In this document: positions 12,968-62,512 of the stretch, piece after piece
Layout: the number at the start of each line of letters is the position of its first letter
Numbering within the stretch: the stretch's first letter is position 1
Assembly: GCA_001574975.1 (NCBI GenBank)
Contig: KQ965739.1
Location: 446,966 to 510,965, forward strand
DNA length: 64,000 nt
Direction: 5' to 3'
Source of the DNA: Gonapodya prolifera JEL478
Lineage: Eukaryota > Monoblepharomycota > Monoblepharidomycetes > Monoblepharidales > Gonapodyaceae
Translations under genes and position numbers: made by a program
Notes under the pieces: model-generated
What the model was told of the DNA's origin: nothing
Seen by the model: only the letters and a program-made list of their open reading frames with translations
The model's database searches: none

Positions 12968-13145
12968 CCTCAAAGCAAATCGAGTGAAGAGGACGCGGTC
13001 GACAGTTCACCGGACTCAATCGGTTTGTAAATACAAGCTCCAAACAATTTATCCATATGTACATTATATACATTTGCAATTACATCGGTGCAGACCTTCG
13101 ATCATTGTCCATACCGAAACGACACCTCACACCCCGCTCATCCGC

Positions 13146-31265: not shown

Positions 31266-34235
31266 TCAAAATACACTCCAACTCCTTCCTGCCATCACCC
31301 TCATCTCCACCACCCTCCTAGTCCAAGAACTATGTAAATTTCCTACAAAGCCCCCAGATCTCGAGCACACCAACTGTTCCAATATGGACCTCTCATTGAC
31401 GTCCAACGTGCTTGTAACCCACGTCGGTAATAAGCCCAGAATATCGTTCTGGAACAATACTGTTCTCCCCTCCGTCTCAACAAGAGCGCTGTTGTTGTCG
31501 CTCGTTACGTCTCGACTTCCACCACAGTCGCCACACCGAAAAACTTTCTTCAACGTCCTCCTGAATCGTCTCGCTCGCGCTCCATCTCCGAACTGATCTG
31601 TCGCAACAAACACGACCGGGTATTGGAAGACTGGAAAATCCCCTTTCAGCTTGTCAAGAATGTCCAATGGATCCTGCCAGCAACTTTTCACGAGTCCGGC
31701 ATTCGCCTCGCCACCATTCACTGCCAACGGCTGACACTTCGCCTCATAATCGCCCTGTCGTGCGTGTATGCACACCAAACGTTGCAATGTTGAGGACGGA
31801 GACGTTAAGGAAGGCGATGCTTTGGACGGCATACCGAGACCGTGCTGCAGCGCCAATCTTTCCAAACATCGGCCAGCAAGCTGGCTGATTTCTGGGCGAT
31901 ATTGGAGAGCTTCTGTTATCTCTCTGTAAATGGGGTCAGAACTCCTCTGCTTTGCTCCACTTCCCTCAGTTGGCCTCAAGAACTCATACATGGTCGTCAG
32001 AGGATATTTCTGCTTCACCCCAAAGTCGTAGTACCAAAACATACTCCCGAGAGCGAGTACACGGGACGAATCTTGACCGTGCCGTTTCAGTATCTCGTTG
32101 ATGGTCAGCTGATAGTAGGTGTTGTAGTCCTCCACAACGCCATCAAACGGTTCCGCGACTACGTCCCTGTAATACTCCACGATCTGCTCAAGAGTCGTCC
32201 CTTCCCCCAGAGAGTGGTATCGTACCGTCCCTAACGACTTTCCCGCATTCAAAGCCAGAAAGTTGTCCATGGAAATGTACCGGCAGGGGAGTAATGTGGA
32301 CAAGGCGCGGGCGTCAAAGTATTTTTCGAACGGTTCCCAAACAAAGTCCAAGGGGCGGAAAAGCACGGCCAAAGGCTTCTTGCCCCCGTTCATTTCATTT
32401 TGACCTGGGCTTGGTGCGAGCTTGTACCGCCAACCCAGGTGCGGAAGCACCACCGTCCGGTCCGTCATCTTCGCCAGAGCACACGCAGACTTAAACCCAG
32501 TCACTTGGTTGTTGAACTGCTCCCAGGGCATCATCATCAGATACTTGTCGTCTCCGTTGGACGACTTCATTCGCCGAAGTGTAATTTCCAGGAGCCGATC
32601 GAGCTGGGGCAGTGACACTCTGATGTCTTGATTCCTCCAGAAGTTCTTCGAGTCCATATTAGTCCAGTCAATCGGTTGGTTGAGTACGGTGTCCATATCC
32701 GCGTTCGTGAAACGGTGGCCTTCTACATACCCGGGTTGAAAGCGTGCATCTTCCAACCTCGAATTCTGGAAAAACACATAATGGACCCCCATGATCCGAC
32801 AAAGGTTGCGAAAAATCGTCTTGCGAAAATTGTAAGGGAAAATCTCGACGACGTGAGTCCCCGGTCGCATGAATAAAACGTGCGCGAGGCCGGCCCCGTG
32901 GGTTGCGACAAGAATATCCGAGCTAGTAATGTGCGACACTTGGTCTTGTAGATTCAGGTGCTCAAAAGCCTGAACATCAACGGTAACGGGTAATTTCTGC
33001 AGGTGTAGAATGAGAGCGTCTTCATTAATGATGGCTCGAGTGCCTCCTGCACGACGCAAAAGAAGCAGTTTAGGTATGGAAGGCGGATTTTCGGCCTCAG
33101 CCGGGGCGTTTGATGATTGCGTTTCGAGATACCCCAAATGTGATGCGGTACTGGACCGAAGTTGGATCAGACGATTGCGGAGGGTTGAGCAGAACGAAGT
33201 GAAAGCTATCTTGCGCAGATGAAATCGCGCCTCCTCCACGCGTTCGACTTCGAGCTCTGCCACATTTGCATCCTTGGACAGACCGATGATGGCACTCTGA
33301 TAGAGGGAGTTCTGCTCCCTGGGATCCTCGAACATAATCAAGGGCTTTTGTGTCACATATTGCAACAGCGGCAGAAACTTTTTTGGCCCCTTCGGGTCTA
33401 CCAACATGATACGCTGATGCATTGGGAAGAACATGTTGTAGTCCATGAGAGTGTACCATCCAGCGACACCCGCATAAATGGTGCGGAAGAGATTGTCCCA
33501 TAGAACTGACATGAAGAGGACGGGTTGTCGATAATAGAGAGCATCGTATGGCAGAGTGGATGGAGGTTGTTCGCGATGAAGGTAAATCGGGAAGAAGGGC
33601 GTACGGTTGGATGGAGGCAGAAAGCCGGGAGGATCTGGGTTGTTCAAATCGCAGTGGGGGTACGGATGAATCCAGGGTGGACCGTTTGGAAACTTGTCCA
33701 GTTCCGGCATTCCCATCATTTGTTCTTGCCAGGACCTCGTTGCGTTCGCCGCCGCGCTTCTCCAATCAACCTCTGTGCAATCGGCGAGAAAGCGGAACAC
33801 CGGACTTCCGAATCCAATCCCGGTAGTCATAGCGATTGAGCCGTTCCACCATGAAGGTTCTTGGAAAATGGGGTTCTTTGGAGAGAGGAATACGTGATAA
33901 TGCCCCCCAATCCGGTAGAGATTTCGAATGTAGCACGTGCACTGGGATGTGCGACATTCTACTTCTGATAAACGCTTATGAACCGGTGGAATACTAGTGT
34001 CCTCGTCCTTGGACAATTGTGAATTGACAGCTTTGACGGGTGACAGATTCCGAGCCCATGTTTCATTGAGCGATAAGGCGGCGCAAAGAATGAAGGTCAC
34101 GGTGCCGATGCAGATGTGTAATGATGGTGCGCGAAGACAGCATCGGATGGGCAACATGAGAGGGGACTCCCGCTGCGACACTGCACTGCGACCCGGATGA
34201 ATAAGTTTAGCCGGCGATTTGTCGAGATTCAGCAT
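31266..34235 (-). CDS. Bifunctional GT61 plus O-fucosyltransferase-like fusion, type II membrane protein
   Basis: One uninterrupted 989-codon reading frame. A hydrophobic anchor lies at about residues 38-56 (ICIGTVTFILCAALSL). The first lumenal domain (about 80-560) carries the GT61/EOGT-like core, with SSDILVATHGAGLAHVLF near residue 440 and GTHVVEIFPYNF just after. The second domain (about 570-989) opens with MPWEQFNNQVTGFKSACALA and contains VCIHARQGDY near residue 825, the HxRxGD-type GDP-binding motif of POFUT-like enzymes; it ends with GGFVGNLHSSWTRRV. GT61 enzymes transfer GlcNAc or xylose, and POFUT-like enzymes use GDP-fucose, so the fusion may add two sugars of one glycan in the Golgi (inference). 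Absence of introns is unusual here. Divergent from the decayed glycosyltransferase at 34.4 kb. Confidence 0.85.
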   Translation of the reverse strand: MLNLDKSPAKLIHPGRSAVSQRESPLMLPIRCCLRAPSLHICIGTVTFILCAALSLNETWARNLSPVKAVNSQLSKDEDTSIPPVHKRLSEVECRTSQCTCYIRNLYRIGGHYHVFLSPKNPIFQEPSWWNGSIAMTTGIGFGSPVFRFLADCTEVDWRSAAANATRSWQEQMMGMPELDKFPNGPPWIHPYPHCDLNNPDPPGFLPPSNRTPFFPIYLHREQPPSTLPYDALYYRQPVLFMSVLWDNLFRTIYAGVAGWYTLMDYNMFFPMHQRIMLVDPKGPKKFLPLLQYVTQKPLIMFEDPREQNSLYQSAIIGLSKDANVAELEVERVEEARFHLRKIAFTSFCSTLRNRLIQLRSSTASHLGYLETQSSNAPAEAENPPSIPKLLLLRRAGGTRAIINEDALILHLQKLPVTVDVQAFEHLNLQDQVSHITSSDILVATHGAGLAHVLFMRPGTHVVEIFPYNFRKTIFRNLCRIMGVHYVFFQNSRLEDARFQPGYVEGHRFTNADMDTVLNQPIDWTNMDSKNFWRNQDIRVSLPQLDRLLEITLRRMKSSNGDDKYLMMMPWEQFNNQVTGFKSACALAKMTDRTVVLPHLGWRYKLAPSPGQNEMNGGKKPLAVLFRPLDFVWEPFEKYFDARALSTLLPCRYISMDNFLALNAGKSLGTVRYHSLGEGTTLEQIVEYYRDVVAEPFDGVVEDYNTYYQLTINEILKRHGQDSSRVLALGSMFWYYDFGVKQKYPLTTMYEFLRPTEGSGAKQRSSDPIYREITEALQYRPEISQLAGRCLERLALQHGLGMPSKASPSLTSPSSTLQRLVCIHARQGDYEAKCQPLAVNGGEANAGLVKSCWQDPLDILDKLKGDFPVFQYPVVFVATDQFGDGARARRFRRTLKKVFRCGDCGGSRDVTSDNNSALVETEGRTVLFQNDILGLLPTWVTSTLDVNERSILEQLVCSRSGGFVGNLHSSWTRRVVEMRVMAGRSWSVF

Positions 34236-34419
34236 TGGCGCGCAAAGTCACGTGTCGATTCTCTGTTTTGAATCTCTGAGGATGCGCGTAAGCTGCAACC
34301 CCTGCTCTCGTCTATGCACGTTTACCGTGGCAGATGCAATCCAACATTGTGCCGTTCGCCCTCACGCCGTACGGACTCAATACCCTCCGATTGCTCTGGC
34401 GCAGAACACGCTCGAGTCT
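34236..34419. promoter_or_regulatory. Divergent upstream region between the GT61-POFUT fusion and a glycosyltransferase relic
   Basis: Some 184 bp between opposed start codons. The shared promoter role is inferred from the arrangement only. Confidence 0.35.
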
Positions 34420-35545
34420 ATGACCTCTTCAAAGAGGCTTTGGCTGCTCGTCATTGGTGCCGCGTTCGTGTTGGTGATTATGTGGCTCTCCGTCATGTTG
34501 GATCTTCGAAAGCACCGCGTCAAGCGCGAGCTCCAGAACGAAACTACTTTCCGACACGACACTACTTTCAAACCTTGCTATGGTGATCGAGCCATCGTTT
34601 ACACCGTCTTTGGAAACAAGTGGATGGACTATCAGGTCATAGCGTTGACGTTCGCTCGGGCGTTCCACCCCACCGAATGTATTTGTAGTTATTCGCCAAC
34701 CTTCCGTTACCGGAAGTGCTCCTCGCTCCGCGCTCGACGAATATCTGGTCAACAATCTGAAAATCAGCCTTGTTTCGGCTGACGACCTGGGGGGTTCGTT
34801 GGAGGATCGGCATCGACTCGAGAATGGGTTCGTACGTCCACTCGTCTGCCAACGATAAAGTCTATGAACTTTTCTGTATCCAGAGGTTTCTGTCGCTGGA
34901 CGCATTCTGTAAGACGCAAGACAGTAATGTTCTTTCATTCCTTCACGCAGACCTAGACATTCTTATGTTTGCGAAGCTCTTGGACGTGTTTGACATCCCA
35001 CCGGAGAAGGACATTTGGGCAATCCGGCCCGGGGGGACGTGACTAGCGCATTGGAATTGGAAATCGGTCGGAGATTTCGCAAAGTTCATCAGGCAGTTTT
35101 ACGCGAGACCAGTGGACATGGTACTGGAGGACATCCGGCGCTTCGGCGACGCCCCAAACAACAAAACACAATTTTCGGACATGTACCTAATGAAGAGACA
35201 TCGTACAAAGACCGGATGCAGTGGGACTTTTCTCCAGATGCGTTTAATGAATGGGAACTCAGCAGCAGCGGCGCTGTCCCGAGACGTGCGGGTGACATCT
35301 GTACGGGGAACGATAAAGAAATCAATGCTGCAAAGATTTTGCAGTGGCGAACAGCGGCCAATGTCAGCCAACTCTTGCCAAACTACTCAGTGCCGTTGTC
35401 CACGGATTCAGGAAAACCGATTGCATTGATGCATTTCCAGGGTGGGGGATGTAAAGACCTTATGTGTGCTTGGTTCTGTATTGCTTTGAACGCCGGCTTT
35501 GCGGCTCAGATACCGTGTTGCAAGGCCAAAATAGGGCCGAAATAG
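34420..35545 (+). pseudogene. Decayed glycosyltransferase-like gene
   Basis: Starts MTSSKRLWLLVIGAAFVLVI, a signal anchor, then AIVYTVFGNKWMDYQVIALT, VVIRQPSVTGSAPRS and LSFLHADLDILMFAKLLDVF; HADLD may be a DxD-like metal site. One good intron (about 52 nt) joins ENGF to RFLSLDAFC. The frame then breaks at least three times. A +1 shift near 34675 separates FARAFHP from VFVVIRQ. An in-frame TGA at 35039-35041 follows IWAIRPGGT, although similar sequence (HWNWKSVGDFAKFIRQFY) continues in the same frame. A -1 shift near 35190 leads into YKDRMQWDFSPDAFNEWE. The rest runs to CCKAKIGPK. This is either a recent pseudogene of a host glycosyltransferase or a region with several assembly errors. No exact family assigned. 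Confidence 0.65.
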
Positions 35546-36136
35546 TTCAGTAACGCGAGACCGATACCTTCCATCTTCGTCTCTGCACACAGTACCTGAA
35601 AGGGCCACAGTGGACATTTTTCCATCGTGCTATCTTTAACACGCTAATGAATTTCGTATAAAAACGGGAATTATAAATTCTACCCACGTCGTGCGTACCA
35701 TATTGTAGGCGCAGGGGAATGGGTGCTGGATGCACCCCCCATCACCTCTCCCGAGACGAGTGGCGGATTCCTCCTCATGAACAACGCCATCGGTATTCTT
35801 CTCATTGTTGTTATGGTGCAAAGAAAAATTTGTATGGGCAATTACACTGCTTTGACACGGAACTTATCTTCCAGGGTGGCTGTCGAGTGGTGTATTTCCG
35901 ACTGCCCTATCACTGTAACTTTATAAGCAGTATTCTTGCTTTTAGATATCACCTCATTACAACAAAAATGGTGCAACTATGAGACGGTGTTATAATGGCA
36001 ATCTTCGGTCACTAAAACGCTGGTATAGAAGTCAGATGAGGAAGGATCCGGACCTCAGCACCTGCGCATAAGCGATAATCATAAACAAGAGGACCGCGGA
36101 TTCTTAAAACAATTGCCATTCCAAATAAGTGGCTGG
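35546..36136. other. Intergenic, no gene recognised
   Basis: About 590 bp after the relic and before the convergent SGNH gene. AT-rich, with only short open frames and no family resemblance. Confidence 0.5.
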
Positions 36137-37769
36137 CTATGAAGCCGCGACCGCGTAAATCCAAAAATGGTGGCCCCCGTCGGGATTTGAGGATTCCTCC
36201 AAAAGCTTGCAGTTCACCTTGTGCATTCCAGGCCCAATGGCGGTCAACGGATCCGATCCGACGGGTATGTTGTGTACTTCATCCCACCATCCGGACATCC
36301 GAATGCCTTTGGTTTCATTGTTGTCAAGCCAACAGTACGCGTCGCCGAGAGAATACTTGCGTGACTTGAAATAGAAGATGACGACGTGACCAACGCTCGT
36401 CCGGATCTCAAACGTAACACTGGATCCAGGTGTGTCTGAAACCACGTAGAACTTTTCTCCTTCCCAGTCCCACAGAGCCCAACCGTGCATTTCAGTTGGA
36501 CCCCAAGGTGACGTGGGGTTCATGGGACTCGGCCGCATCATCTTGCAATGAGGTACGAATTCATTGCTCGTACTTGGATTTGTGGGATCTCATCGCATTG
36601 TGAAATTTGACTCGATAGCGCGTCAAAATGGATCTCGCCCTTCATCGAGTAGCGGGGTTGTGTGAACCTCGCATTGTTGCTGGTGTAGAAAGCAGGTGAC
36701 AAGATTTGCCATGAGTCGGTGGCCTGCTTCATTTGGGTGGAAACGATTCCACGCGAAGTATTTCTCCGTCGTACCAATCCAGTTCTCCAGGAGCTGAAGC
36801 CACCTGAAACAAGAGCGATCAAGGTGTTCATGAGGTGGCCCTCCATGTTATGCAAACAAAACTGCCAAACCTCACATGAAACTCCGCAGATCTATCACAG
36901 GAACGTCGTAGAATCCGGCTAACGAAAGCGGCGTGTCCACAGATCGAGGATACTGTGCAAAGGGTCCCTTTGGCGCAAACGTGGAGACGTAGATGATGGC
37001 AGGTTGCATCGGCAAGCGTCCGATGGAGTGGACCAAATCTTCGAGCTCGGTGACAAAAGTAGCCACTGTGAATCAATTTTGTCATCCGCTCCTTTTCACC
37101 GAGCCCGAGCGCACCGTCACAATCGACCACGAACCTCCCACTATTGACTGAAAGCTCAATCATCACCAAGTCCACACTAGGGGTATGTGTTGCATCCAAC
37201 CGAATCGGAAATATCCTGCGCCCGTCGCCCCCACAGCTCCGTTTACCAGCGTGATATTGGCGAGAGGGAAAGTGGACTGGAGAGACTTCGCCACGAGGCT
37301 GGGCCAGCAGGCTTCGGTTGACGATATGAAGTGACATGCGGTAACTTAGATACCGTGGAGTGCCATCAGTACGGCAGTTGCACGGGTGAAAATCGCGGTC
37401 GAAACTCACTCGATCCCCCGATCACACCAACACGCAGCTCCTGTCCCCTCAGAGCTTTTGCTATTAACCTCTTAATCGCCATTCCGCTTCCTTCGTATGC
37501 TTTCGCTCTAGCCATTCCGATTTTCCCAACATCAGTGCATGCGGCACAGTCCTCACTCAATTTCAATATTTGTTGTTTATAATTCATAATGCTGGGGTCT
37601 CGGACTGTGTCCGGTGTTCGAAACGGGGACTCCTGGGGTTCGCATCCGACGTCGGCAGGCCACGATGCAAGCAACACGACACTTGCAACGACCGCGAGGA
37701 CAGCAATCACGCGGAAGAAGGGGCTACCTGTCCAATTACTTTCTTTGGACCCGAAACGCTCTCTGACAT
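36137..37769 (-). CDS. SGNH-type hydrolase with C-terminal beta domain, type II membrane protein
   Basis: A member of the fungal SGNH esterase-like family found with capsule and cell-surface genes. A hydrophobic anchor (VIAVLAVVASVVLLASW) precedes LRVGVIGGSI, the nucleophile block (GGS). Then come NGAVGATGAGYF, SVDLVMIELSVNSG, and after a 50-nt intron VATFVTELEDLVHSIG. NRFHPNEAGHRLMANL supplies the catalytic His. The C-terminal part (WGPTEMHGWALWDWEGE to FWIYAVAAS) is the beta domain that accompanies this family. It may deacetylate or acetylate a surface glycan (inference). Two junctions are unresolved. The anchor and the likely start MSESVSGPKKVIGQ (37769) are out of frame by one base at a CCCC run near 37723. 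The join between the SGNH and C-terminal domains, near 36.6 kb, also fails to stay in frame. Confidence 0.7.
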
Positions 37770-37950
37770 GAAGGTTGCCAAAAGTCCAAATGTTCTCGCG
37801 CCTTCAGTCTCTGAAACCGTACGGTCTGACGAGTCCAAAACTGTCTTCACGATGACACAATGAGCTCCGCTTTGTGGCTGGCCGCCCATGGTGAGAAGTT
37901 GATGTTGGATAAACTAGTACACTTGGCTAAAATTTTATTGGCAGCTTGTG
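37770..37950. promoter_or_regulatory. Divergent region between the SGNH hydrolase and CHMP7
   Basis: About 180 bp between the proposed start codons. An alternative upstream ATG for the SGNH gene (37889, MGGQPQSGAH) lies in this stretch. Confidence 0.35.
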
Positions 37951-39827
37951 ATGAACGACCTACAACAATTCCTTCACTCTTTGCCCGAATGGAACGACCC
38001 AAAACGCCTAGGTGGTCTTTTCGCAAGATCGACCACACCGAGCGCGGTTACGGATAGAAACTCCTTCTGGAGAAGAGTTATTCTGGAATCCGCACACAGA
38101 GGATTACTCGGAAATGGTAGAGCCACTTTAAGAGTCACTTCAGACTTCGCAATTCGTTTTGCAGATGCCACCGGCAGAGTGCCGGCAACGTTAGATCAAG
38201 TCTTGGTGAGCAGTGATGTATTGAGACTTGTAAGCTCCTTCTCATGAGAATCGCAGGACTCCATGCGATTGGATGAAACGCTCATCCCAGTAAACCAACT
38301 TCATCGTTCGAATGGCTGGTTGAATTGGGCCTGGAACAAAGCGAGCTCTCCTTTCAGTGGACTTTTGGGGGACGAACAGTCCACCCAAGACTTTGTAGTC
38401 GCACCTGTTGCAGAGGTGAGTTTACCTTCATTCGAAGTGTTTAGCTGCATGTATGGTAAAAGACCCCGAGCTTCACAAGCATTGAGCAGCTTGCACATTT
38501 CAAGGGTAGACACTGAAGCTTTGTTCGAGGATTCTAATCGTTGGCGAGGATGTCATATTTTCCCGCATGGAATACTAGGCAGTTCGTGTATACCTCACCG
38601 ACTGACAATGCTTTTTTATGCTAGTTCCTCAGCCGACTCCTTCTCCACTACCACCTTTCATCGAGACGACACCCCACCGACGACCTGCGTCCCCTACTCA
38701 TTCTTAAGGAAGAATATCGTGAAAGTCAAGCACTTGAGAAACAAAGTAGCATTGGCGTGTCTGAGTCCGATTGGGATGTTCTGGTTGGGTGGGGTGAACG
38801 GAAGGGGATGTGGCGCGTTTACGGAGATGGCGGCGAAAAGGTATTAGGCATCATTTTGCACCACGTCCCGAATGTAACTGGAAGGCTTTTTCAAGATTCT
38901 CAAGTTCCACTCTCCTAACACGTACCCCTCACCCCTCCAAGATCAAGTTCTCACCACAGGTCTGCCACTGGCACAAACTTCGCCTCTTTCTTCACCCGCT
39001 CCTCTCACTCCACTTGAAATCACCATATCCCGCCTCAAGCTTACGTACCGAACCTTGCTCAGCTCCCTGACCGCCCTCCGATCAGAACACGCCCGCCTCG
39101 TTGACAACGTAAAGAGGGCGCTTCTCCGCGGGGACCGACGAGAGGCGACCCGATTGCTCAAAAAAAGTAAAGCTGTCACGAAGAGCCTCCAAATACGAGA
39201 GGTTCAGGTCGATGCTGTGGGTGAGGTTGTCGAAAAGCTTGATGATACGGCGGCGCAAGCCGAGGTGAGTCTTGTTGAGACGATGGGCATGCTACTTTCG
39301 TCTCGGGATATGTGTGACTATTTTGAACCACTTTTGATGTTCTTATGCGCTATTTACTCTGGGGACAGATTCTTTCGACAATGCAAACTGCATCCACGGC
39401 CCTTCGCTCACTTCTAGCACACCATAGCATCACACCGAGCCGCGTAGAACGCGTCGCTGACGATCTTCGGGAAGCCCTGAGCGACCAAAGGGAGATTGCC
39501 GAGGCGCTCGACAGGGAAAACACCGCGATACAGAACGATGGCTTTTGGGTTGACGAGGACGAGCTGGAAAAAGAACTTCAAGAGTTAATACTTGCCGAAG
39601 CGCGGGAACAGAAAACCTCATCTTCCCTGCTTGAAGGCGATTTGGGCGGGGTGGACGGTGGGTTGGCCGCCGATACGGGCGAAGCCACAGTGGAGAAGCT
39701 CATAGAAGAGCTGGGGACCATTTCATTGGGCGACGGAATACCGGAGCAAGCTATGCAAGCTGGTGATGTTAATGTGAAAACCACATCGTCGGGCCATTTG
39801 GAAGGTAGAGGAATTGTCCCGGCATGA
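37951..39827 (+). CDS. CHMP7: ESCRT-III-like protein CHMP7
   Basis: CHMP7 recruits ESCRT-III to the nuclear envelope and endosomes for membrane sealing. The start MNDLQQFLHSLPEWNDPKRL is followed by winged-helix-type sequence (FWRRVILESAHRGLLGNGRA, then LDETLIPVNQLHR). A further exon reads LSRLLLHYHLSS and continues into WDVLVGWGERKGMWRVYGDG. The SNF7-like half begins EITISRLKLTYRTLLSSL and has the basic helix VKRALLRGDRREATRLLKKS. After an intron near 39.27-39.36 kb it continues ILSTMQTASTALRSLLAHH and DLREALSDQREIAEALD, with an acidic helix (EDELEKELQELILAEAREQ) and a MIM-like C-terminus. Four or more introns; the one near 38.9 kb is not placed exactly. It looks like a housekeeping gene inside the glycan block. 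Confidence 0.85.
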
Positions 39828-39945
39828 GCATTTACATAAATGTCAATCGTCGAGTTTACAATCAGTCTTAATGCGTATGTCTACTGCGATAATAAACGTG
39901 CGTGAAATAGATTCCAAATAGGAACAGATTTTGAGGCCGAGACTT

Positions 39946-42259
39946 TCAGAGGCGGCCGACCCAGTTGTTAGGTCGCGACAACCAAGACGGACCATCTGAG
40001 TTCGCTTTAGCACATCCCGCCATACCCAAGGATCGCAGCATCCCCTTTAGGCGCGACTCCTTCTTTGCAACAGACTCCACAGATATATTTTCTTGGGCGA
40101 ACTTCCTGGCGTCCCCGGATGCACGCTGCCAGATCTCTTCAGAAGTGTACAGCTTTTCAACTTCAGCAGCAAATGTTGTCGCATCGTTCCCAACTGAGAC
40201 ACCCGGGCACGTTCGTTTCTTGTAACACAAGCCCCTTAGGCCGTGTTTTGTGGTCACAATGGGTAAGCCATGTGCCAGGGCCAAAAAGCTCTTGGTGGAT
40301 ATCCCTTTGTGGAAGAAACGTATTCGAATGGGTGCAAAAATATGTCCAACATATTCGCTCACCGCTTCCCATATTCACCATGGGATTCAGAAACACCCTC
40401 GAGGTTTGCAAGAATGGTAAGACACTATCAACTTCACCGGTGCCATGAACGCAAGGCTTCCCCTGTGCCATTTTAATCCACTTGGGGGATCCAACAAGAT
40501 GGAGTGTGACGTTGGGAATTCGTGCACAGAGAAGGGGCATGATGTCCTTGATCAGAGAGTCCACCACCTCCACGTTACCATTGTGTCCGGATCCCACGAA
40601 AACAACACCTGTCCGGTCCTTGAACGGAACAAGTGATGGTTCCCCGATTTCCTCTGTGAACGGGAGCTGCTCCACTACGTCGGCGCTAACGTGCGAGATC
40701 TGCTGAACTCGAGCCGCATCCTCGTCACTCACGGTCAGCACCAAATCACCCGCTCTATACGCTGAGACCTCGCCTTCTTTGACTTGCTGTAAAATTATTT
40801 GACTTTTTTCTCCCATAAAGTCGGATTTCAGCGACATTCTGTGGTGGTGAATGTCGTCCGTAACCATCACCAACTTTGTACGGGGTGACTTCTCCCGAAG
40901 GACTGGTGCAATTACTTGCGGAATACTCGGTGTGAACTTTTGGGGATTTGTGAACCAAAACCACACCGGGAGAATAGCTACATCAAAGTTTGGGTGCCAG
41001 TTGCTCAGCATGTCGTTCAAACCTGTGAAATTAAAACTGTCCAGAATAAATTGGTGTCCATTTTCAGTAAGCCATTTATCAAACCCAAGAGGCCCCTTGT
41101 CGCGAAACACAAATGTCAGGTCGTGGTCTTCCGCGTGAAGCCACTTGACAAGAGACCACAAACGCCGATCTCCTCCTTCGTTCAGTTTGAAAAGTCGTTC
41201 ATGCACCACGAGAACCCTAAGTTTCCGACATGGTAGGAGAGGCTCGTATCTTGTCCGAATCGCTTCAAAGGCATGGTCGACTGAACCTTTCCTCCCGTAA
41301 GAGTTCTCGTTCCAGTAATAGATGCCGAGCGTTTCATTCAGGAACCACAGTTCTTCATTTCGAGCGATCGCCCGAAGCCACAATTCCCAATCAGAATATG
41401 GGCTGACTTGATTGTCGAAGTATCCAATCCTGTCGTGCAAGCTCGCACGCCACATGGGATTGCTGTGGTACTTGTTACATCAAGAAAACTTCAGCTCATA
41501 TAAGTAATACTTACTTATGTGGAAGATTCTGGGAGGCTTCGACTCTCCCATGTTCATCCAGGATGAAGAAGTGTTCAAGCCTCAATCTGAATGATGCATC
41601 TGAGCGCCACCAAACAGGTCCGTTACCCGTTTTTTCCCAGTCTGCATTCGCAACTTTCGACATTCGCACTCCAGCACAAACCAGCGCTACCACTGGATTA
41701 CGGTCCAAAAACAACATGTGTTGTTCCAGAGAGTCTACACGCTTCCGATCATCCAAATTTGCATTCGTAATATATGTGCCTTTGGCATGAAAGCGAATGA
41801 GTCTGTTCCACACCTATCGAGAACACGTTTGAGCAAATGAGAACCGTCAAGAGGACTCTCACCGACCTCGTAAAGTGGAAGATCATCCATTGGAATTGCG
41901 TAAATATTCGACCATATTTCGGAATATGACGCTATCGTGTGCATCACGAAAGAGCTTTGTGGCCCGACCATTGCCAGCAGAAGCTCGCTTTGGTGAAAGG
42001 CTGTTTGTCTGATTGTGTCGTTTAGGAAGCCAACTATCCATTCATCGGCTCGATAGACTGATGTGATAATCGATATCTTTGGTTCGCGTACGCTCCTGAT
42101 ATTCATCGAGCTTCTGGTTGGGCGAAGGCGAGCATTGTTGATGGGGCGAGATGATGGATTGGTGCTACCATCTCCAATCGAGCCAAGAGCGAAGAGCAAG
42201 GACGCAAGAATCGCAATAGAAGCTACGAACACGATGCGAGGTGGAGATCTGACTCGCAT
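39946..42259 (-). CDS. GT2-GT4 fusion glycosyltransferase, type II membrane protein (copy 1)
   Basis: The N-terminal anchor IVFVASIAILASLLFALG is followed by a GT2 domain: ISIITSVYRADEWIVGFL, the acidic nucleotide-sugar motif ANLDDRKR, and YSDWELWLRAI. The second half is a GT4-type domain: VVHERLFKLNEGGDRRLWSL, VFVGSGHNGNVEVVD, VTLHLVGSPKWI, and the donor-binding NPMVNMGSG joined by a 58-nt intron to GISTKSFLALAHGLPIV. Two more introns precede VWNRLIRFHAKGTY and SNPMWRASLHDRIG. The protein ends RPNNWVGRL at 39946. Such fusions can add two successive sugars in different linkages (inference). Copy 2 lies about 1.7 kb downstream on the same strand and is clearly paralogous over its full length. 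Confidence 0.87.
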
Positions 42260-43124: not shown

Positions 43125-43672
43125 GGGCAGTCGCATCTTCCTATCTCTTTCGATCTTTACGCTCTCTTACCAGCATTTGGCAACACGTGCTGAAACAAAA
43201 GAGCCTAGATAACCTTTGGGAAGACTCTTTGAAGGATGTCGGGCAACATGTGAGGCGATTTCCAAAACGCGAAGTGTGAGTGGTGCAGCTTCATCAAAAG
43301 CAGCGTCAAACTTCCAAGCACCGAACAAGAAAGGAGGTCTGATGGTCTTAACACTCATCTCGCCCAACTCCTGAATCAACCAAAGTCGCGAAAGCCTCTG
43401 AAGGGAATTCAGGTTTGCTCTCAACTCTCCTATCAACACTACCAGCTTCGGGAGCACCAGGAACATCTTTCGCCGGGTTGGGTGGCGAAGAAGTGTGGGG
43501 AAGAAAAATGATGAAGACTGAATTGCATGTGTGCGTCCCTTTGCCTGAAGGTTTGCACACCCCTGCCCTTGTAAGCGGTGACGTCAAGGCAGGTTTTGGT
43601 TTCCGGTTTGCCAGATCAAGGAGTTCAGCGTCCACACAACCAGAATAAAATCATGTTTCAGGGATCGAAGAG
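43125..43672 (-). pseudogene. Truncated inverted copy of the unknown gene at about 56.1-56.7 kb
   Basis: On the minus strand this matches plus-strand sequence at about 56090-56670 nearly end to end, at roughly 80% identity or more. Shared phrases include DAELLDLA, GAPEAGSV, EAFATLVD, TLRVLE, ARHPSK and LGSFVSA. It keeps the sequence of the source intron, so it arose by DNA duplication rather than from a spliced RNA. Relative to the source it has an extra-base frameshift near the start (catgattttattctgg against catgattattctgg) and lacks the segment around the intron acceptor (source YLDAML). Both gene ends are absent. It sits between the two GT2-GT4 paralogs. Confidence 0.8.
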
Positions 43673-43967
43673 GTTCGTTGTCGTCATCTGTCTGTTCAAT
43701 CGATAGCAATTACCGTCGCAAGATAACGATTGCTTGTGACTTCTCACCCATATGTGATAGGCGACGCCATTGCTGTACCGATATGTTGGGCCCGAATTAA
43801 AGAGGATCGTTGCCTGCCGATGTGTGTATGTGAGTGTTGTGGGCTTCACGGCACAGCACTCTCAACACATCATACGGTTTAAAACAACAGAGCAAAAGAA
43901 GAGAGGGGAATGACTCCGAGCAACGTATGAATGATCAATAAATCAATAGTTCGATGCTATGTGCTAG

Positions 43968-46324
43968 CTATATTTGTACAGGAGCCACCGTTGTGCGGTG
44001 GTGGTACAAGTTCTTAGCTGCGCCACCAACGTCAACCAGTGCTTCGTCTGCTGCATCACAATTCGAACGGGACAACGTGCGCAATAGTCCTTTGAAAATG
44101 GTTTCTTTGCGCTTCAGTGATTCCAGAGAAATGTGTGTCTTTGCATATTGAAAGCCAGATTCTGATGCCTTCTCCCACAAGGCTCGAGACGTATAGAGCT
44201 GTACTACTAGATCTGTAAATGTCAAGTTGTCACTTGCAATGTAGATGCCAGGACAATTGTCATTGTCACAGAGGCCGACTGTACCATACTTTGTACTAAC
44301 AGCCGGCAAACCATGTGCCTGTGCTGTGAATACTTTGGTTGAGATCCCTTTCAGAATGATTCTGTCAGAAAACTTTGGGTGTAGTATGTGTTGAAGCGGT
44401 TGAAACTCACCACTACCAACGTTGTTCGAAGGGTTCACAAACAATCTGCATGATGAAAGAAACCTTTCAACGGAATTCACCGTGCCAGCTGCGACAACAT
44501 TATTCCGTCCCGCTGCCATTCGTATCCATTCGGTAGATCCCACTAGAATCAGCTGTACATCTGGCATTTTCTCCAACACAGCTGGGAAGATGACATCAAG
44601 AAGAGTTGTTACAGTCTCAACGTTGGCATTGTGTCCTGAGCCAAGGAAGAGCAAGTCTTTTCGCTCGTCGAAAGTAGAGCTATGTGCAACAATGTCCTCT
44701 GTGAAAGGTATGGTTTCAATTGTGCTCACATTGCCGCCAACAAACGTTCGAATTACTTCTGCATCCCCGGCAGAAACGGTCAAGAGCAAGTCTCCGGAGG
44801 AATATGCAAATACTTCGCCAAGCTTGACAGAGGATAGTTTTTCTTGACTTTCTTGGCTAGCCCATGTTCTCATCTTCCGTATGTGGTGGACATCGTCAGT
44901 CATTACGACGAGCTTCGTTGACGGCGTCTTTGACCGCAATATAGGAATTGCCACCTCCGGAATACTGGGCACATACTTGCCACCCTCCAACCACCAATAC
45001 CAGGTCGGGAGGATGGCCATATCAAAGTGGGTGTCCAAATCTTCAAGCTTTGCGGCCATCGAGTTCAAAGAAAAATTATCTTGAACGATTTGATGATGCT
45101 TCTGCGAAATCCATTCCACGAATTGGGAGTCCCCCCGGTCAGTCCTGAAAACGAAAGTGAGGTGATGCCCCTCTTCGTCCAGCCATTTGACTAATGACCA
45201 CAAGCGCCTGTCTCCACCTTCATTCATTTTCAAGCTTCGCTCATGAAGAACAAGGATGTTCAGCTTCCGGCATGGGATCATGTGATCATAAGTTATTCGT
45301 AGTTGCTCCACTGAATGGGCCGATTGCACTGCCTTTTGCACATGGGATTGCCGGTTCCGGTAATTTACACCCAAGGTTTCGTTGAGTAACCAAAATTCTT
45401 CGCCCACAGAAACACTTCGAAGCCAGAACTCCCAGTCCGAGACAGGGCTCAGTTCATTGCGAAAGTATCCAACCCGGGAGTGCAAGGCGGCGCGCCACAT
45501 GAGATTGCTGGAACATAAGGGGAGATTACAGTTCGCAGCTGGAAAAGAAGTTAACTCACTTATGGTGGAAGTTCGGTTCAAGGGTAATCCTGCCGTACTC
45601 ATCGTACGAAAAGAAGTGCTCAACTTTGAGCTGAAACGGGTTTGACGCTTGCCACAAGAGAGAGTACTCTCCGCCCGATTGCCAGTTTGCATTTGGTGCT
45701 GTCGTCGCTCGGACTCCAGCGCAAACAAAGCTCGCGGACGGATGGTTGTCGAGGAACGTCATGTGTCTTTCCAAAGAATCCCTTCTTTTTCTATCTTCGA
45801 CATTTGCATTGCTGAGATACGTTCCCCGAGCATGGAATCGAATGAGCTTATTCCAGACCTGTATTTTGGATCATCGAGTGGTCTTCGCGTGCTGGTGATA
45901 GCGAACACGCAGAACATACCTGATCGAGAGGTAAGTCATACATGGGGACAGCAATGATGTTCGGAAACCGGCGAGCATAAGAGGCGATGGCATCTCGCAC
46001 GAAGGAGGACTGATGTCCCACAATGCCCAGGAGAACTTCGCTCTCTCGAAACGCCGTTTGGTTGACAATGTCGCCCAAGAAGCCGAAAATCCACTCGTCC
46101 GCAGAACAGACCGGGACGAGGACGGATATCTTCGGCGGTGCCTCTTCTGCACTTCTATGGTAGCTCCTGAATGAGTTCTTCGACGCAGTGGTGAAAGGTG
46201 CTTCATTATTTGATGTCCCATCTGTGCCGTGGGGAGGTGGTAGTCGTGTCAAAGAAGCAATGAGCAGCCCGAATGTTGCAAGGCAAATAGCAGGTAGCGC
46301 TCGGCGCGGTCGCTCCAACCACAT
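43968..46324 (-). CDS. GT2-GT4 fusion glycosyltransferase, type II membrane protein (copy 2)
   Basis: A full-length paralog of the gene at 39.9-42.3 kb with the same domain order and intron positions. Anchor ALPAICLATFGLLIASL; GT2 part with ISVLVPVCSADEWIFGFLGD, ANVEDRKRRDSLERHM and VSDWEFWLRSV; GT4 part with VLHERSLKMNEGGDRRLWSL, LFLGSGHNANVETV, VQLILVGSTEWIRMAAG, and NPSNNVGSG joined to GISTKVFTAQAHGLPAVS. The intron inside this last motif is 63 nt, free of stops and divisible by three, so retention would insert 21 residues in frame. The protein ends HHRTTVAPVQI. Divergent from the two-domain glycosyltransferase at 46.5 kb, with 198 bp between start codons. Confidence 0.87.
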
Positions 46325-46522
46325 TTCCTCGCTTTGCGATCAGATTATGAGTAACAAACGTGGAGTGAATCGTGTTCCTCTTATTTTGCCGTAAATTGAG
46401 CCTTGTGCCAAGACCGAATCATCTTTGCCATCACCTCCCGCCTCGGGCTCCAAGCAACGCGTCCCAGTAATAGCCACGTGGCATCGATCGCTCTGTGACC
46501 CGTCGCCCGACGCACCCATAAG
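46325..46522. promoter_or_regulatory. Divergent region between two glycosyltransferase genes
   Basis: Just under 200 bp between opposed start codons. A shared promoter would allow co-expression of both enzymes. This is inferred from spacing. Confidence 0.35.
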
Positions 46523-48221
46523 ATGGCGACAGACCTACAGTGGCGTTTCCTTGCTGTGAAACGGCAGACATGGCGATTCTCACGCATCCTCCCCCTGATT
46601 GCAATTGCTGGTGTCATCATTTGGACATCGACCAATTCTTGCGAATCGTTTATACCCTCCAGTATTGCTCCGAACAGCACACACTTAATGTTCCCTCGAA
46701 ACTCAAAAGAAGCGATGGCCTTGCTTGTTCCTTTCACACTTCACGAAGGAGATGAGGTTGCGCGCACGCTTGCCGGGTGGCTTTCCAGACACCCTTGCAA
46801 TTCGTGTGATTTAAACTACGATATCGACCTTGTACTGTACTTTAACAGGGACTGGAAAGAAATTCAAGACACGATCAGGAATACCATAACGTCGGAAGTT
46901 GACGCCGTTATGAGTGGCTCCAAGTGTTTTCGTGGAGTGAGATGGTTGTCAGCCAACTTGACAGATCTGGAAGACATATATCCTGCCGGTCCCGTAAGTT
47001 CACAAAATGAAAGTACTTCGATTTTACTCAGCTTTCGGCCTCTTACAGAGTAATCAGTTCTACAAACTTTTCGGGTCGTTGTTTGAGAATCTCTCGGCGC
47101 AGTATCGTTGCTTTATGTGGATGGAACTTGATGTATTCATGATACGTGAATCCTGGATGGACGCTCTGGCTCGGGAATGCTTCCAAGATTGGCGGGACTG
47201 GTGGATGAAAGGTTCCATCACAAAAGGAAACGTCAAATTGGATGACAGCACCGCCAATTGGTTACCGCATATCAATGGGAATGCATTATATCGCCTTGGG
47301 AAGCCACATTTTAGGAGGCTCATTCATCAAGTGGAAGTCGAATATCCCCCCAACGTTGGCTGGCACCCATTTGATGTTGCCATCTATCAGCTAACCCACA
47401 GACGCGACCAGTATCAACACTATGTGCAATACGCTTCGAAACTGGTTTATTCCGATTTTGTACTGAACTGGTACAATAATCTGACTCAGGAGCGACTTTT
47501 GGCTATTAGCAATGAAGAGAAAGGCACATTTATCGTCCACGGACACCGACCTGATCGACCCCCAAAACGGAGTCCTCTGAAGGAAGCTGAGAATTGCCAA
47601 ATCAGTGAGCTTTCAGTGAGCGGTGTTTCGCTTGTCACGTTGGTAGATAAGAGGTGAGCAACTTGCAGCGAAGGTGCTCCCTGCCGATTGTGAGATTTCT
47701 TGTGAAGCGCCATTGCATCCATCGACATGTCTTTGCAAGATTTAATGAAATTTGACGGATTCCGGGAGATAGTTTTGGTTGATTGCACTGGGGATTCTTC
47801 TTTTGCCGAAACGTTGAAGACCTTTGAGTGGTCCCGGAACACAAAGGTCCGAGCAATAATACCACGTGGGACCACAGACTTGTCACAGGGGGAATGCCGT
47901 GAACTTGGCGGCTTGTTCAGCATTTCTCACAAAGTGATGTTCGTGCCATTGGATACGAAGAAGCTCCCACTTGGATGGGAGACCTTGCCGGAACCGACAC
48001 TCCCACTGGATCCAGACGCTATAAGTGTTTTGACACGGGCGTTACTCTTTCGTAGTATGGGCTATCGGGTACCTTCGTTGCTACAACAAGGAAAACGTGG
48101 CATCCAACAATCAAATGTGGATTCGTTCCGCGTTTTTTCCCGAGCAAGCCTCATCAATTGGACTAGCCTCAACTCAAAGAAGCACAGCAAGCAATGGAAG
48201 CATTGCATTGTTGAACTTTAA
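46523..48221 (+). CDS. Two-domain glycosyltransferase-like type II membrane protein
   Basis: An N-terminal basic tail and anchor (ILPLIAIAGVIIWTS) precede domain 1, which reads LLVPFTLHEGDEVARTLAGW and YDIDLVLYFNRDW. After an intron near 46995-47047 it continues CFMWMELDVFMIRESWMDAL, a DxD-like context; VGWHPFDVAIYQL and FIVHGHR follow. A second intron, about 47654-47708, joins VSLVTLVDK to SAIASIDMSLQDLMKFDGFR, so domain 2 opens like a GT2/GT-A fold (SLVTLV...EIVLVDCTGD). The C-terminus is given as WKHCIVEL at 48221, but another frame (ALSLPSLLFLLLVFIAFE) stays open further and an alternative end is possible. The family is unnamed to me; the GT role rests on layout and context. Confidence 0.65.
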
Positions 48222-48429
48222 CGAAGCAATTGTAGCATTGAGCTTGCCTTCTCTTTTGTTTCTGTTGTTGGTATTTATTGCATTCGAAAATATATGTTGT
48301 TCCGTCAGCCTACCACGTATGTGTCCATAACCGTCAAGCACTCAATCAATTACATAACCATATTTGTACACAATGTGCATAACCGAGGTTGATTCTTTCA
48401 CTTTTTCAGGTTTGATCTACACTCTACTC

Positions 48430-49692
48430 CTATGCACTACCAATTGAAATAAAATTATTCGCTCCTGAGAGTTTACTGTGGTTGTGTTCATTTTCGTGGG
48501 GGACTGAATCTTCCCAGTTACACTTTGCTCGCCAACTACAGTGATCCTTGAAGTTCGCGCATTGTGGTCCATCACACCAATTATGTGCCATAGAAGCGCA
48601 CAGGGTATCTAATTCCTCATCACCAACGTGTACCAACGACTGCAAGCAGACAATGTGGTATCGTTGAGAGTTCAGCACTTCCTCATAAACGTCCATGACC
48701 TCCTTTCCAAGCACGGTTGTCACAAACGTACTGCCTTTGTCGTCAGGACTTATATTTCTTGCTTGCGGAATTAGATATTCCATGTGGATCCCCACAAATT
48801 GAGACAATATGGAGAAGTGCACGTCACCCCCTTCATCCAGTGTTCCATATTTGCGTAATTTGTTCAGCATACTCCTTGCTAACTCTTTGCGAAACAGTTG
48901 GTACGTCAACCTCTGCGTTTCCTTGGTTAGGACATACGCTACGTGAGCGTCAGTCCAATTCATTCGGTATCCAAACCTCTGCTCGAACAGGATTGCAGCA
49001 TTTCTCCGAGCATGCAAATATCCCTGATTCTTCAAATCTTCAGGCGCCATGTCCAACAAGTGAGTCCCAAAGACGGGGAAGGGCGGGACTTGTTCCAGCA
49101 TAATAGCTCGAGGAATGTTCTGCTGAAAAATGTGTTCAGGGAGGACATGTGCCGCGAACACCATATCGTCGTTGAGGTACAGATAGTCGTTTACCAAACC
49201 TTGCACGCGATGAATAAATGTCTCCAAGGTATGAGAGTTGAAATTTGGGAGGAATTCTGCAGGTACAATATCCTGCACTTCTGTAACATGAACCTTCTCT
49301 CGAAACCCAGGGTCCAAGAACTCCAAAGGCAACTTCTGTTCGTCCACAATTATGTAGACGCTGTGGACCCACGGAAGAAACCTCTGAACGCTCAGCAGGC
49401 TCATCAGGATCTCATTGTTCGATTGGGCCCTGTCGCACTCCTCCAGGCGCCCAGCCGCGCTCTGAACCTTCGCACGACTTTTGATGTCCGTTCCATTGAA
49501 GTATAAGTAAATTATATCCAAAGGAGGATGGGTGGAGGTCCCGTTATCTTCAACTGACAAGGGATAGAATCTCCAGACCCTCACTCCATTGAACTGTTCG
49601 GGCCACACACTCCAGAGTAGCATGCAACAGAGCACGATGGCAGGGAGTAGTATCGCGCGCGTGCGGCGACTCAATTGCATCCCAAGGTGCAT
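48430..49692 (-). CDS. Stealth-family sugar-phosphate transferase, type II membrane protein
   Basis: Stealth proteins (bacterial capsule polymerases, animal GNPTAB, fungal xylosylphosphotransferase) move a sugar-1-phosphate from a nucleotide sugar to a glycan. The start MHLGMQLSRRTRAILLPAIV gives a signal anchor. CR1 is LDIIYLYFNGTD. CR2 starts RAQSNNEILMSLLSVQRFL and runs through WVHSVYIIVDEQKLP, NFNSHTLETFIHRVQGL and YLYLNDDMVF (about residue 175). CR3-like sequence includes GYLHARRNAAILFEQRFG and AHVAYVLTKETQRL. The tail has several Cys residues (CANFKDHCSWRAKCNW). It is about 420 residues, in one exon. An in-frame extension upstream of 49692 lacks family resemblance. The natural acceptor is unknown; context suggests a surface glycan. 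Confidence 0.88.
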   Translation of the reverse strand: MHLGMQLSRRTRAILLPAIVLCCMLLWSVWPEQFNGVRVWRFYPLSVEDNGTSTHPPLDIIYLYFNGTDIKSRAKVQSAAGRLEECDRAQSNNEILMSLLSVQRFLPWVHSVYIIVDEQKLPLEFLDPGFREKVHVTEVQDIVPAEFLPNFNSHTLETFIHRVQGLVNDYLYLNDDMVFAAHVLPEHIFQQNIPRAIMLEQVPPFPVFGTHLLDMAPEDLKNQGYLHARRNAAILFEQRFGYRMNWTDAHVAYVLTKETQRLTYQLFRKELARSMLNKLRKYGTLDEGGDVHFSILSQFVGIHMEYLIPQARNISPDDKGSTFVTTVLGKEVMDVYEEVLNSQRYHIVCLQSLVHVGDEELDTLCASMAHNWCDGPQCANFKDHCSWRAKCNWEDSVPHENEHNHSKLSGANNFISIGSA

Positions 49693-50520
49693 ATTAATTT
49701 TCGGATAATCTTGTCTAAATCTGCACACCAACTCCCAAGGAATCCAGTGCAGGCCCGAGGCAAAGTGCATAAACGCCTTTTGTCGACATGAGGAATAACG
49801 AGAAGTGGCGACTCTAGACTGTGTGCAACCTCCGCTGTTGATATCGTGCACCTCCGTCCTTCCCCCCTTCTTCCACCCCTTCTTCTCACCCCACTCCTGT
49901 ACGGGCGTTTAATGGCTCTAGATAATCTCCAAAGATGAGAAGGTGAAATCCAACTTCAACCTCTCCTACTATGCCAACAAAGATCCGCGATAATTGCATC
50001 AACGACCAACTCTCGTCACCTCCACCAAGTTGATCATCTGGCGTGCTCAGACCAAAAAGCGCATGGAGCTTCTCACACGTGCGTCTTGAGGCGATCTACC
50101 TAGACAAGGAGACCTTCTCCCAGGAAAAGGACATCATCGCCACGGCGCACCCACGGTCCGTGTCTGCCCTCCCTCTAAGTGGGCCCGTGAAAATTGCGTG
50201 CGGGTCTACAGCAAACCTGTACAAGTGCTTTTAGACTCTCCGCCTGCATATCCTCGGTACCAAGCCAGTGAGTGATGCGACCATTAACTCCATTCCCACC
50301 GCCGATCAGGCCTTCCGTTTCCTCTCCTCCATCCATCCATATAGTAGAAGAACGAAACCCGAGCTTTCGGTTTGATCGACCTCCTGAACAGCAAGCTGGA
50401 GACCTTGAAGCCCACCAAACTCAACCTCTCGAACTCGACAGTTGCAGCGCGGAATGACCAAAAGACTACCTTTTGGAGAGTTGTTAAACTTCGTCACATG
50501 AGAATACATACGCATGTAAC
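49693..50520 (+). pseudogene. Possible gene relic, origin unknown
   Basis: Protein-like phrases appear in changing plus-strand frames between about 49.93 and 50.46 kb: KVKSNFNLSYYANKDPR, LIIWRAQTKKRMELLTRAS, RLEAIYLDKETFSQEKDII, SGPVKIACGSTANLYKCF, DATINSIPTADQAFRFLSS and IDLLNSKLETLKPTKLNL. They are separated by stops with no convincing introns. It may be a degraded host gene or a retrocopy. I could not name the parent. The first 240 bp are the upstream region of the Stealth gene. Confidence 0.3.
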
Positions 50521-50667
50521 TATTTTAGTCTAGTATGCAAAACAATGAAGTAACTAACGTATCTTCCCCCATTTCGTCCCTCTTTCATCCTTTCGGGCAA
50601 AAATATAGCTAACACAGTGTCATGTCGTTCAAATCCACAATCTATATCGCATTGACAGATCGAGTAC

Positions 50668-51802
50668 TCACTTTTGGCACATGATGAGTTGCTTGCAAGG
50701 GAAGCCAAGTTCGACCATTTCCTCATCGCATCCAGCAGCTTCGTGGCCCGTCCAGCACGGTTCCAAGTCAGCATCCATGAGCTCAAGACCAGCGTCTTCG
50801 AGTTGCAAGAATAGTAAGCCGAGGTTGTGCACGTGTTCGGAATCCTTGATCCACACTTTTGAAATGTGAATCTCGATCGTAAATTGTCGCACGTTGTGGA
50901 AGAAGGACGGGTTGTGCTCTGCGACGTCTCGAGCAAGTGCATATTCGCCTGGCAATTATCACACGTGAAACTAGGGAACAGAGAAGGACAAATCGAATCA
51001 CGTACATCCTTCACAATCCATTTTCAAAACATCAATCTGATCGTGCTTGAAAAACTTTTGTATTTCTGGGACACTTGAGACAAACCACGGCTTGCCCCAG
51101 TTATACTTTTCTGACTGCGACTCGGACAGCGTTGTGGCCCCGATTTGAAAGAACAGCACTCGGTCTGTGAGTGTGGACCTATGGTCCGTGCTGGGGTCAA
51201 ATGCATCTTTGAAGAAACGATAAAGTTGTGAGGTGTCGTCCTTGCCGTTGACGTGATGGACCTACATCCAGAACATCCCCAACGAGTGGCCAAGTCCCTG
51301 TCGAATGCGTATTCTGTTGATATTCCAAATGAGTAGAAAGTACATTCCCCATGTTGCTGGGGTGGATAGTCGCAGATCTTGTGAACTTCCAAATGTTTAG
51401 ATAATTGGTGAACTTCAACAATGTTTTCAAACAACGCAACTTACCTGACCAGGTACTTTCGCCGGGCTCCGTCAGCTTACACAATGAGAGGTTTTGGTAT
51501 TCTTCTTCATCGGTCCCCTCGAGTCGGTTAAGAACGCGAATTCGGTGGCCTGCTCTCCTGATCGCCTCCTTGGCCGCCTTCCTGCACGCTGGCGACCGTG
51601 CATCTGACGCCCAACTGCAATTTATATCGGAAAATCGGACAATTGTGCTCTCCCCTCTCAGCTCCCTCGGCTGAGGTAGCGCATCAGAAAAACGCGACAA
51701 GTGATTCGAGGCTACCCCAAACAGCAAGAGGATGAGCGCGCCTGATGCGACGTAGGGCAGTGAAATTCGCTGGGCCTGTGGAATCCACGATGCGACTGTC
51801 AT
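50668..51802 (-). CDS. FkbM/METTL24-like methyltransferase, type II membrane protein
   Basis: The anchor near the start (YVASGALILLLFGVAS) follows MTVASWIPQAQRISLP. A Cys-bearing stem comes next (FSDINCSWASDARSPACRK). The methyltransferase part has HGECTFYSFGISTEYAFDRD, like the CxxYSFGI..DWSFD block of METTL24-type proteins. The FkbM-type block is IDVLKMDCEGCEYAL, followed by FTIEIHISKVWIKDSEHVHN and ADLEPCWTGHEAAGC. It ends LIMCQK at 50668, where a gtgagt overlaps the stop, so a further exon is possible. An exon join near 51260 (between ATRWGC and VHHVNGKDD) is unresolved. SAM-dependent O-methylation of a surface glycan would fit the neighbours but is inference. Confidence 0.72.
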
Positions 51803-55821: not shown

Positions 55822-55926
55822 GGATGGAAGGGCAATATTGCCAATTTTCTAGTCACCGTGCTCCGCGCAATCGTTGCTCAAAGTTGCTACTTGGTTTTTT
55901 GATTCAGTCCTTCTTCACGCCAAGAT

Positions 55927-61212: not shown

Positions 61213-61315
61213 AGAGTGAAAATGTTCGCATGCAGTACTCAATTGACATTGTAGAATTTCAAATAATTACGTTTACCGAAACAATTCACGAACAGCTGGA
61301 ATCGGGTATTCTTGA

Positions 61316-62408: not shown

Positions 62409-62512
62409 GATGTCTCCGGAAGACCCCGGGGATCGATAGATATTTTGTTGGAGACCCTATCGACAAGCCGCACCTTGTGCCCAAGTTAGGGCACAGCCCC
62501 TTTGTCCGATGG

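Follow-up and report, generated by a model that had tools for sequence, protein, structure and literature searches.

In bacteria, capsule and lipopolysaccharide loci unite many glycosyltransferases (GTs) with a Stealth phosphotransferase and enzymes that modify sugars, and in Cryptococcus CAP10/GT90 and the xylosylphosphotransferase Xpt1 serve the capsule or the protein O-glycans. As far as the accessible parts of the fungal literature go, the clustered glycan loci in print are the five-gene galactosaminogalactan (GAG) clusters (PMC8224951, PMC7229062), known from Aspergillus, Metarhizium and Neurospora (PMC8224951, PMC7229062, PMC11356417). The locus described here belongs to the zoosporic fungus Gonapodya prolifera JEL478 (47.56 Mb in 207 contigs) and begins within the 64,000-nucleotide stretch of contig C9 that was analysed as a whole (the window, C9:446966-510965). 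This island of glycan genes spans ~C9:478.2-559.7 kb, i.e., about 82 kb with ~27 genes or gene remains, and no account of anything like it was found in the literature on chytrid and fungal glycan clusters, in a search whose coverage lay outside most subscription journals. It is best filed as a large, new form of the fungal glycan gene cluster whose members may act jointly and, judging from the sequence, we lean slightly towards reading it as a locus for glycan assembly and decoration that would make one surface glycoprotein coat.

The comparison with the described systems is instructive on both sides. Like the GAG clusters, as the accessible parts of those papers present them, the island joins fungal extracellular-glycan genes physically, combines glycosyltransferase with modifying enzymes and is patchy in distribution; the GAG cluster, however, consists of five genes (a glycosyltransferase, an epimerase, a deacetylase and two hydrolases), whereas the island has ~27, with many Golgi-type GTs and methyltransferase-like genes. 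GAG synthase, epimerase, deacetylase, GH135 and GH114 were all missing from the Pfam-scanned island frames, a set outside which many short frames fall. With Cryptococcus the island shares a GT90 and a sugar-phosphate transferase, but the Cryptococcus capsule and O-glycan genes are scattered in the genome. From the bacterial capsule and lipopolysaccharide loci it differs in four ways: neither a polymerase nor an exporter was recognised, splicing occurs in several genes, the protein starts are mostly hydrophobic and both strands are used.

Inside the window, frames of at least 70 aa were inspected across 30000-52500 and spliced models were built by hand. The glycan genes of the window are the following:

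31266..34235, minus strand: fusion of a GT61 (EOGT/POMGNT2-like) with a protein O-fucosyltransferase (O-FucT); single exon, 989 aa, hydrophobic N-terminal stretch
34419..35545, plus strand: decayed gene resembling a type II glycosyltransferase; its anchor exon survives, GT nature judged by eye
36137..37803, minus strand: SGNH/GDSL hydrolase; 4-5 exons by eye
39946..42259, minus strand: GT2-GT4 fusion a; 4 exons, 716 aa; PF13692 64.3 bits
43968..46324, minus strand: GT2-GT4 fusion b; 4 exons, 726 aa; PF13692 64.7 bits
46523..48221, plus strand: glycosyltransferase with two domains; 3 exons, 529 aa; a relative points to a GT-A fold for domain 1, domain 2 judged GT-like by eye
48430..49770, minus strand: Stealth-family sugar-phosphate transferase; single exon, 446 aa
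50668..51802, minus strand: METTL24-type methyltransferase (Methyltransf_22); 4 exons, 319 aa
62513..64000, minus strand: C-terminal portion of a gene (or pair of genes) of GT32/GT2 type, which begins outside the window near C9:512.9 kb; continuity judged by eye

The initial annotation had seen in 31266..51802 a candidate surface-glycan cluster of a zoosporic fungus, with seven apparently functional genes and one decayed. As far as it could be tested the candidate stands, given the chytrid relatives of the first fusion, families found almost only here and the hydrophobic N-terminal stretches; its limits do not, for the run reaches about C9:560 kb, ~49 kb beyond the window, and what lies in 31266-51802 is the left quarter of the island. 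The gene taken for decayed is indeed so, and six genes rather than seven are intact, since the SGNH gene is broken. These six give uninterrupted proteins with a total of 3725 residues; four of them are spliced, with eleven introns of 52-63 bases and GT-AG ends in the hand-built models. All eight genes, i.e., the six intact ones and the first exons of the SGNH gene and the decayed GT, have a hydrophobic stretch near the N terminus, with a mean hydropathy of 1.6-2.8 over 19 residues, a measure of hydrophobicity and not a prediction of topology.

The first fusion carries both of its domains over the cut-off in one frame (Glyco_transf_61, PF04577, 58.7 bits against 27; O-FucT, PF10250, 47.2 bits against 31.5), just as had been proposed. 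Its GT61 part matched EOGT and POMGNT2 in a search of PDB sequences (EOGT at E 2.8e-9), invariant columns occur in both segments of a four-sequence alignment, and relatives of the fusion were found in Gonapodya sp. JEL0774 (56% identity over 755 positions), Dinochytrium kinnereticum (37%) and Blyttiomyces sp. JEL0837 (33%). The Dinochytrium relative (P0015) is annotated with its GT61-O-FucT pair inside a protein of 1560 aa that also has kinase domains; the annotation may have fused separate genes in error.

The two GT2-GT4 fusions were also borne out: they are 47% identical, have three short introns at corresponding places, and in both the GT4 domain exceeds the cut-off of 27 bits. Their GT2 half gave no Pfam GT2 match at E 1, yet it is 28-35% identical over 226-262 positions to parts of three proteins listed under PF00535, and that of fusion a is 35% identical to one relative (P0001). 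For the two-domain GT, domain 1 has ten relatives in the protein collection, and the structure predicted for one of them (P0007) has a GT-A fold (mean pLDDT 59.9; usable for ~residues 67-330); LARGE1, GT8-type and UGGT enzymes of the GT-A class share 6-12% identity with it, and many GT-A families score closely. The Stealth assignment holds as well, with Stealth_CR2 (PF11380) at 80.2 bits against a cut-off of 39.4 and PDB matches to GNPTAB (E 9e-17) and CpsY (E 9e-12); CR3 reached 13 bits, under its cut-off of 24.2, and CR1 and CR4 were unreported in the same Pfam scan.

For the remaining genes the outcome is mixed. The methyltransferase had been called FkbM/METTL24-like: its Methyltransf_22 domain (PF13383) scores 41.4 bits against 22.4, which supports the METTL24 side, and FkbM (PF05050, Methyltransf_21) stays below the cut-off, with 19.1 bits against 22.7. 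The SGNH hydrolase belongs to its family (PF13472 39.7 bits and PF00657 27.1 bits, both over the cut-off, from joined exon pieces with X at the breaks) but is not clearly functional as it stands, given a certain frame break near 37180-37187 and a possible second one near 37723. The latter may alternatively be an overlooked 5′ exon, and either local misassembly or true decay could account for the breaks. In the decayed GT a three-frame reading shows frame breaks and, near 35042, a stop codon in frame, and two of its pieces scanned with Pfam gave no match. The window frames of the GT32-type/GT2-type gene had no Pfam match, so that its support comes from the outside part. Between the glycan genes, two similar fragments (43351-43650 and 55903-56415) apparently represent, by eye, one repeated sequence family.

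Beyond the window, in frames read across C9:510.9-570 kb, the run goes on with these features, given in their order along the contig:

Outside 1: GT32-type and GT2-type gene or pair (outside part; PF04488 36.7 bits, PF00535 33.4 bits)
Outside 2: fucosyltransferase-like gene after the GT32/GT2, on weak grounds
Outside 3: GT90, 65.6 bits
Outside 4: GT71, 124.4 bits
Outside 5: second fucosyltransferase-like gene
Outside 6: GT77, 82.4 bits
Outside 7: GT71, 81.7 bits
Outside 8: methyltransferase-like gene, 14.2 bits, under the cut-off
Outside 9: two METTL24-like genes
Outside 10: GT2 gene, 106.9 bits, with TPR-like repeats under the cut-off
Outside 11: GT32-like gene and laminin-G-like frame, both under the cut-off
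Outside 12: further methyltransferase-like gene in two copies, 60% identical, recognised by eye with no Pfam match
Outside 13: GT8, 27.5 bits
Outside 14: GT71, 95.5 bits
Outside 15: GT47, 34.6 bits against 33.4
Outside 16: two more METTL24-like genes

The four METTL24-like genes of this part comprise one exon over the cut-off (25.5 bits, in the genome-wide search), one frame below it (12.7 bits) and two frames with no match; three were grouped by 38-44% identity among themselves, and their resemblance to the window gene is marginal (best E 0.005), and of the five METTL24-like genes of the island four were assigned through paralogy or a weak match. Among the fucosyltransferase-like frames one has a match to ‘Probable fucosyltransferase 4’ (E 0.0016), an enzyme of the plant type (presumably the GT37/XG_FTase family), and its paralogue is 52% identical to it over 128 residues; three such frames gave no Pfam match at E 0.1. 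A hydrophobic N-terminal stretch (1.7 or more) occurs in 13 of 16 outside frames. Altogether the tally of 27 consists of 16 genes with Pfam support over the cut-off (15 by hmmscan and one METTL24-like exon from the genome-wide search, the broken SGNH gene included) and 11 on weaker grounds, namely the two-domain GT, two fucosyltransferase-like genes, the GT32-like gene with laminin G, three METTL24-like and three other methyltransferase-like genes, and the decayed GT.

What sets this region apart is that several of its families occur almost nowhere else in the genome. Searches of the organism's own genome were made exon by exon and the best candidates alone were scored, which makes the family counts lower bounds. 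With GT2-GT4 fusion b there were eight matches, all at the two loci here; the METTL24 protein and the SGNH hydrolase gave four matches each, all within their own genes; a 59-aa piece of the decayed GT matched only itself, and the two-domain GT found its own gene and one weak paralogue on contig C12. Stealth_CR2 was over the cut-off in one place, the island, and below it in another, on C2, and Methyltransf_22 was seen in two places, one of them in the island. Even of the larger families the island holds a share: one of three GT61, one of five O-FucT, one of six GT90 and one of four Gly_transf_sug places, and three of the 11 genes in which the 17 GT71 matches lie.

Such crowding is hard to obtain by chance. 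The 82 kb contain 13 Pfam-supported GT/Stealth genes where 0.17 would be expected if the genome had 96 GTs, or 0.34 if it had 197, and the Poisson chance of 13 is 1e-20 with the first figure. The figure of 96 is a published G. prolifera count by another method and maybe from another assembly, and 197 is the count for Rhizoclosmatium globosum (both from the accessible part of PMC6690862). Even with GT71 and GT2-GT4 copies collapsed and Stealth excluded, the nine remaining types give 1e-10 after correction for ~580 windows (7e-8 with 197 GTs), an estimate that assumes independence between genes and whose window correction allows only in part for the fact that the region was not blindly chosen. 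By this estimate, and by small controls, several glycan families lie closer together than chance would place them.

The controls, which were small and not blind, consisted of 10-kb stretches. Around other GT71 sites, five of six had no further GT (frames of at least 165 aa, by eye); the site on C130 was outside the set. Two pairs of these neighbourhoods (C65:187-197 kb with C33:291-301 kb, and C32:267-277 kb with C44:289-299 kb) are near-copies, with GT71 frames 85% and 97.5% identical, which suggests haplotigs or segmental duplication in the assembly, and the six sites therefore amount to about four independent ones. No further GT was seen by eye around the C12 paralogue or the weak C2 Stealth place, nor any GT in four stretches chosen without a GT anchor, two beside the island (L034, L038) and two by coordinate (L130, L131; frames of at least 170 aa, by eye). 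Ten long frames left of the island had no Pfam match of any kind, hence they were unusable as a control. As for the flanks themselves, the 41 kb to the left (Rpt3, RAD50, DHFR, dynein heavy chain) and the 10 kb to the right (methionine synthase) showed no recognisable glycan gene by eye. Within the left part of the window, positions 10001-14000 have a GC content of 0.60-0.63 against about 0.50 nearby, and the long overlapping frames there look low-complexity.

From the Pfam-supported genes, which are closely packed here and rare in the rest of the genome, we infer a shared lumenal assembly line, in which type II (signal-anchored) proteins would work in the lumen of the endoplasmic reticulum (ER) and Golgi. 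The GT61-O-FucT fusion would start or extend O-linked chains on secreted proteins, with a predicted transfer of fucose to Ser/Thr, and further sugars would come from the GT71, GT32-type, GT90, GT77, GT8, GT47, GT2 and fucosyltransferase-like enzymes. Stealth would attach a sugar via a phosphodiester and the METTL24-type and other methyltransferases would O-methylate the chains, two activities predicted from family membership, whilst the SGNH enzyme, if active, might trim or move acyl groups. Together they would make a glycoprotein coat for the cell surface, perhaps that of the zoospore or cyst. A glycan with fucose, phosphodiesters and O-methyl groups, built stepwise in the Golgi on secreted proteins, seems likelier than a capsule of bacterial style, because most of the transferases are of the Golgi type and neither a multi-pass synthase nor a polymerase or exporter was recognised. 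Chytridiomycota, from which GT10 and XG_FTase fucosyltransferases have been reported, can probably synthesise GDP-fucose de novo (accessible part of PMC10481521), and a fucosylated product would fit this.

Several observations weigh against such an interpretation. Genes for nucleotide-sugar synthesis or sugar-nucleotide transport were unrecognised inside the island; 11 of the ~27 glycan genes are supported by weak or by-eye evidence; three of the 16 outside frames have no hydrophobic stretch, the true start possibly missing from them; and the genome search with Methyltransf_22 overlooked the window's own METTL24 gene, which shows that the genome-wide counts are minima. Local duplication explains part of the GT71, GT2-GT4, fucosyltransferase-like and methyltransferase sets, so that the gene number overstates independent recruitment. 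Finally, the glycan genes are interspersed with at least five unrelated ones, and the island is therefore not a tight unit. Two of these, a CBM21 protein at L032:4908-5444 (~C9:515.8-516.3 kb), perhaps of the glycogen-targeting type, and RPN13, are joined by three in the window, the first of which, with its Snf7 domain between glycan genes, does interrupt the run as initially annotated:

37857..39880, plus strand: CHMP7/Snf7-like ESCRT gene; PF03357 34.2 bits, CHMP7 name and limits by eye
57164..61238, plus strand: FG/RanBP-zinc-finger nucleoporin-like gene; weak PF00641 under the cut-off, FG repeats by eye
61736..62456, minus strand: M50B-like peptidase gene; PF13398 74.4 bits, limits by eye

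The explanation that best survives beside a common coat locus is a permissive stretch of chromosome in which glycan genes belonging to separate pathways underwent duplication and were kept, clustered with no shared product. We regard it as a serious possibility, even if one we would not bet on. It would account for the local paralogues (the GT2-GT4 pair at 47% identity, the fucosyltransferase-like pair at 52%, a methyltransferase-like pair at 60%, METTL24-like genes at 38-44% and three GT71), for the interspersed unrelated genes, and for the turnover to which the decayed GT and the broken SGNH gene testify; moreover, GT71 adjoins GT61 on C11, and a GT32 and a GT4-like frame adjoin the GT71 site on C117. 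Duplication alone, however, would not gather nine different GT types, and several of the families are otherwise absent or rare in the genome.

A capsule polysaccharide locus of the bacterial or Cryptococcus style, partly bacterial in origin, seems improbable to us. GT90 (i.e., CAP10) is known from capsule systems, the Stealth relative CpsY belongs to them, and the GT2 half matches bacterial GT2s, the best being from the cyanobacterium Moorena (37%). This half is, however, the only widely bacteria-like part, and a bacterial capsule import was rejected on that ground; most frames look type II, four of the six intact window genes are spliced, and no polymerase, flippase, exporter or lipid-carrier step was recognised by eye or among the Pfam-scanned frames. 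The likeness to capsule toolkits initially seen is weak. Among 79 loci fetched with that half, the GT4 half matched two, METTL24, the two-domain GT and GT61 one each, and Stealth none. The weak co-occurring relatives were GT61 in Okeania (L063), the two-domain GT in Actibacterium (L108) and METTL24 in a metagenome-assembled bacterium (L123). A giant-virus origin was likewise rejected after a scan of viral contigs with GT2-GT4 b, the one gene used, found no relative. The accessible part of PMC11291939 describes horizontal gene transfer into early-diverging fungi, with intron-rich examples from G. prolifera among the cases. A chance neighbourhood of unrelated genes we practically dismiss: large genomes do hold coincidences and the region was picked because it looked rich, but the Poisson values remain minute with paralogues collapsed and no GT was seen by eye in the four stretches without a GT anchor.

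Returning to the coat locus, its fullest form would be a single 82-kb glycan island encoding an ER/Golgi line of 12-16 GT genes, Stealth and up to eight methyltransferase-like genes, for a heavily O-methylated, phosphodiester-bearing, fucosylated coat specific to a zoosporic stage. Such a eukaryotic island would far exceed in size the fungal glycan clusters found in the literature; this we offer tentatively, as a rather unlikely extension of the simpler reading. If it is true, no clustered set of Golgi-type glycan enzymes found in the literature for a fungus would be richer than the island, and the many methyltransferase-like genes beside glycosyltransferases lead to a specific prediction, i.e., native O-methyl sugars. 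The surface glycans of early-diverging fungi are little known, yet they ought to matter for the settling of naked zoospores and for host perception; a compact locus listing many enzymes of one product would turn them into a testable question.

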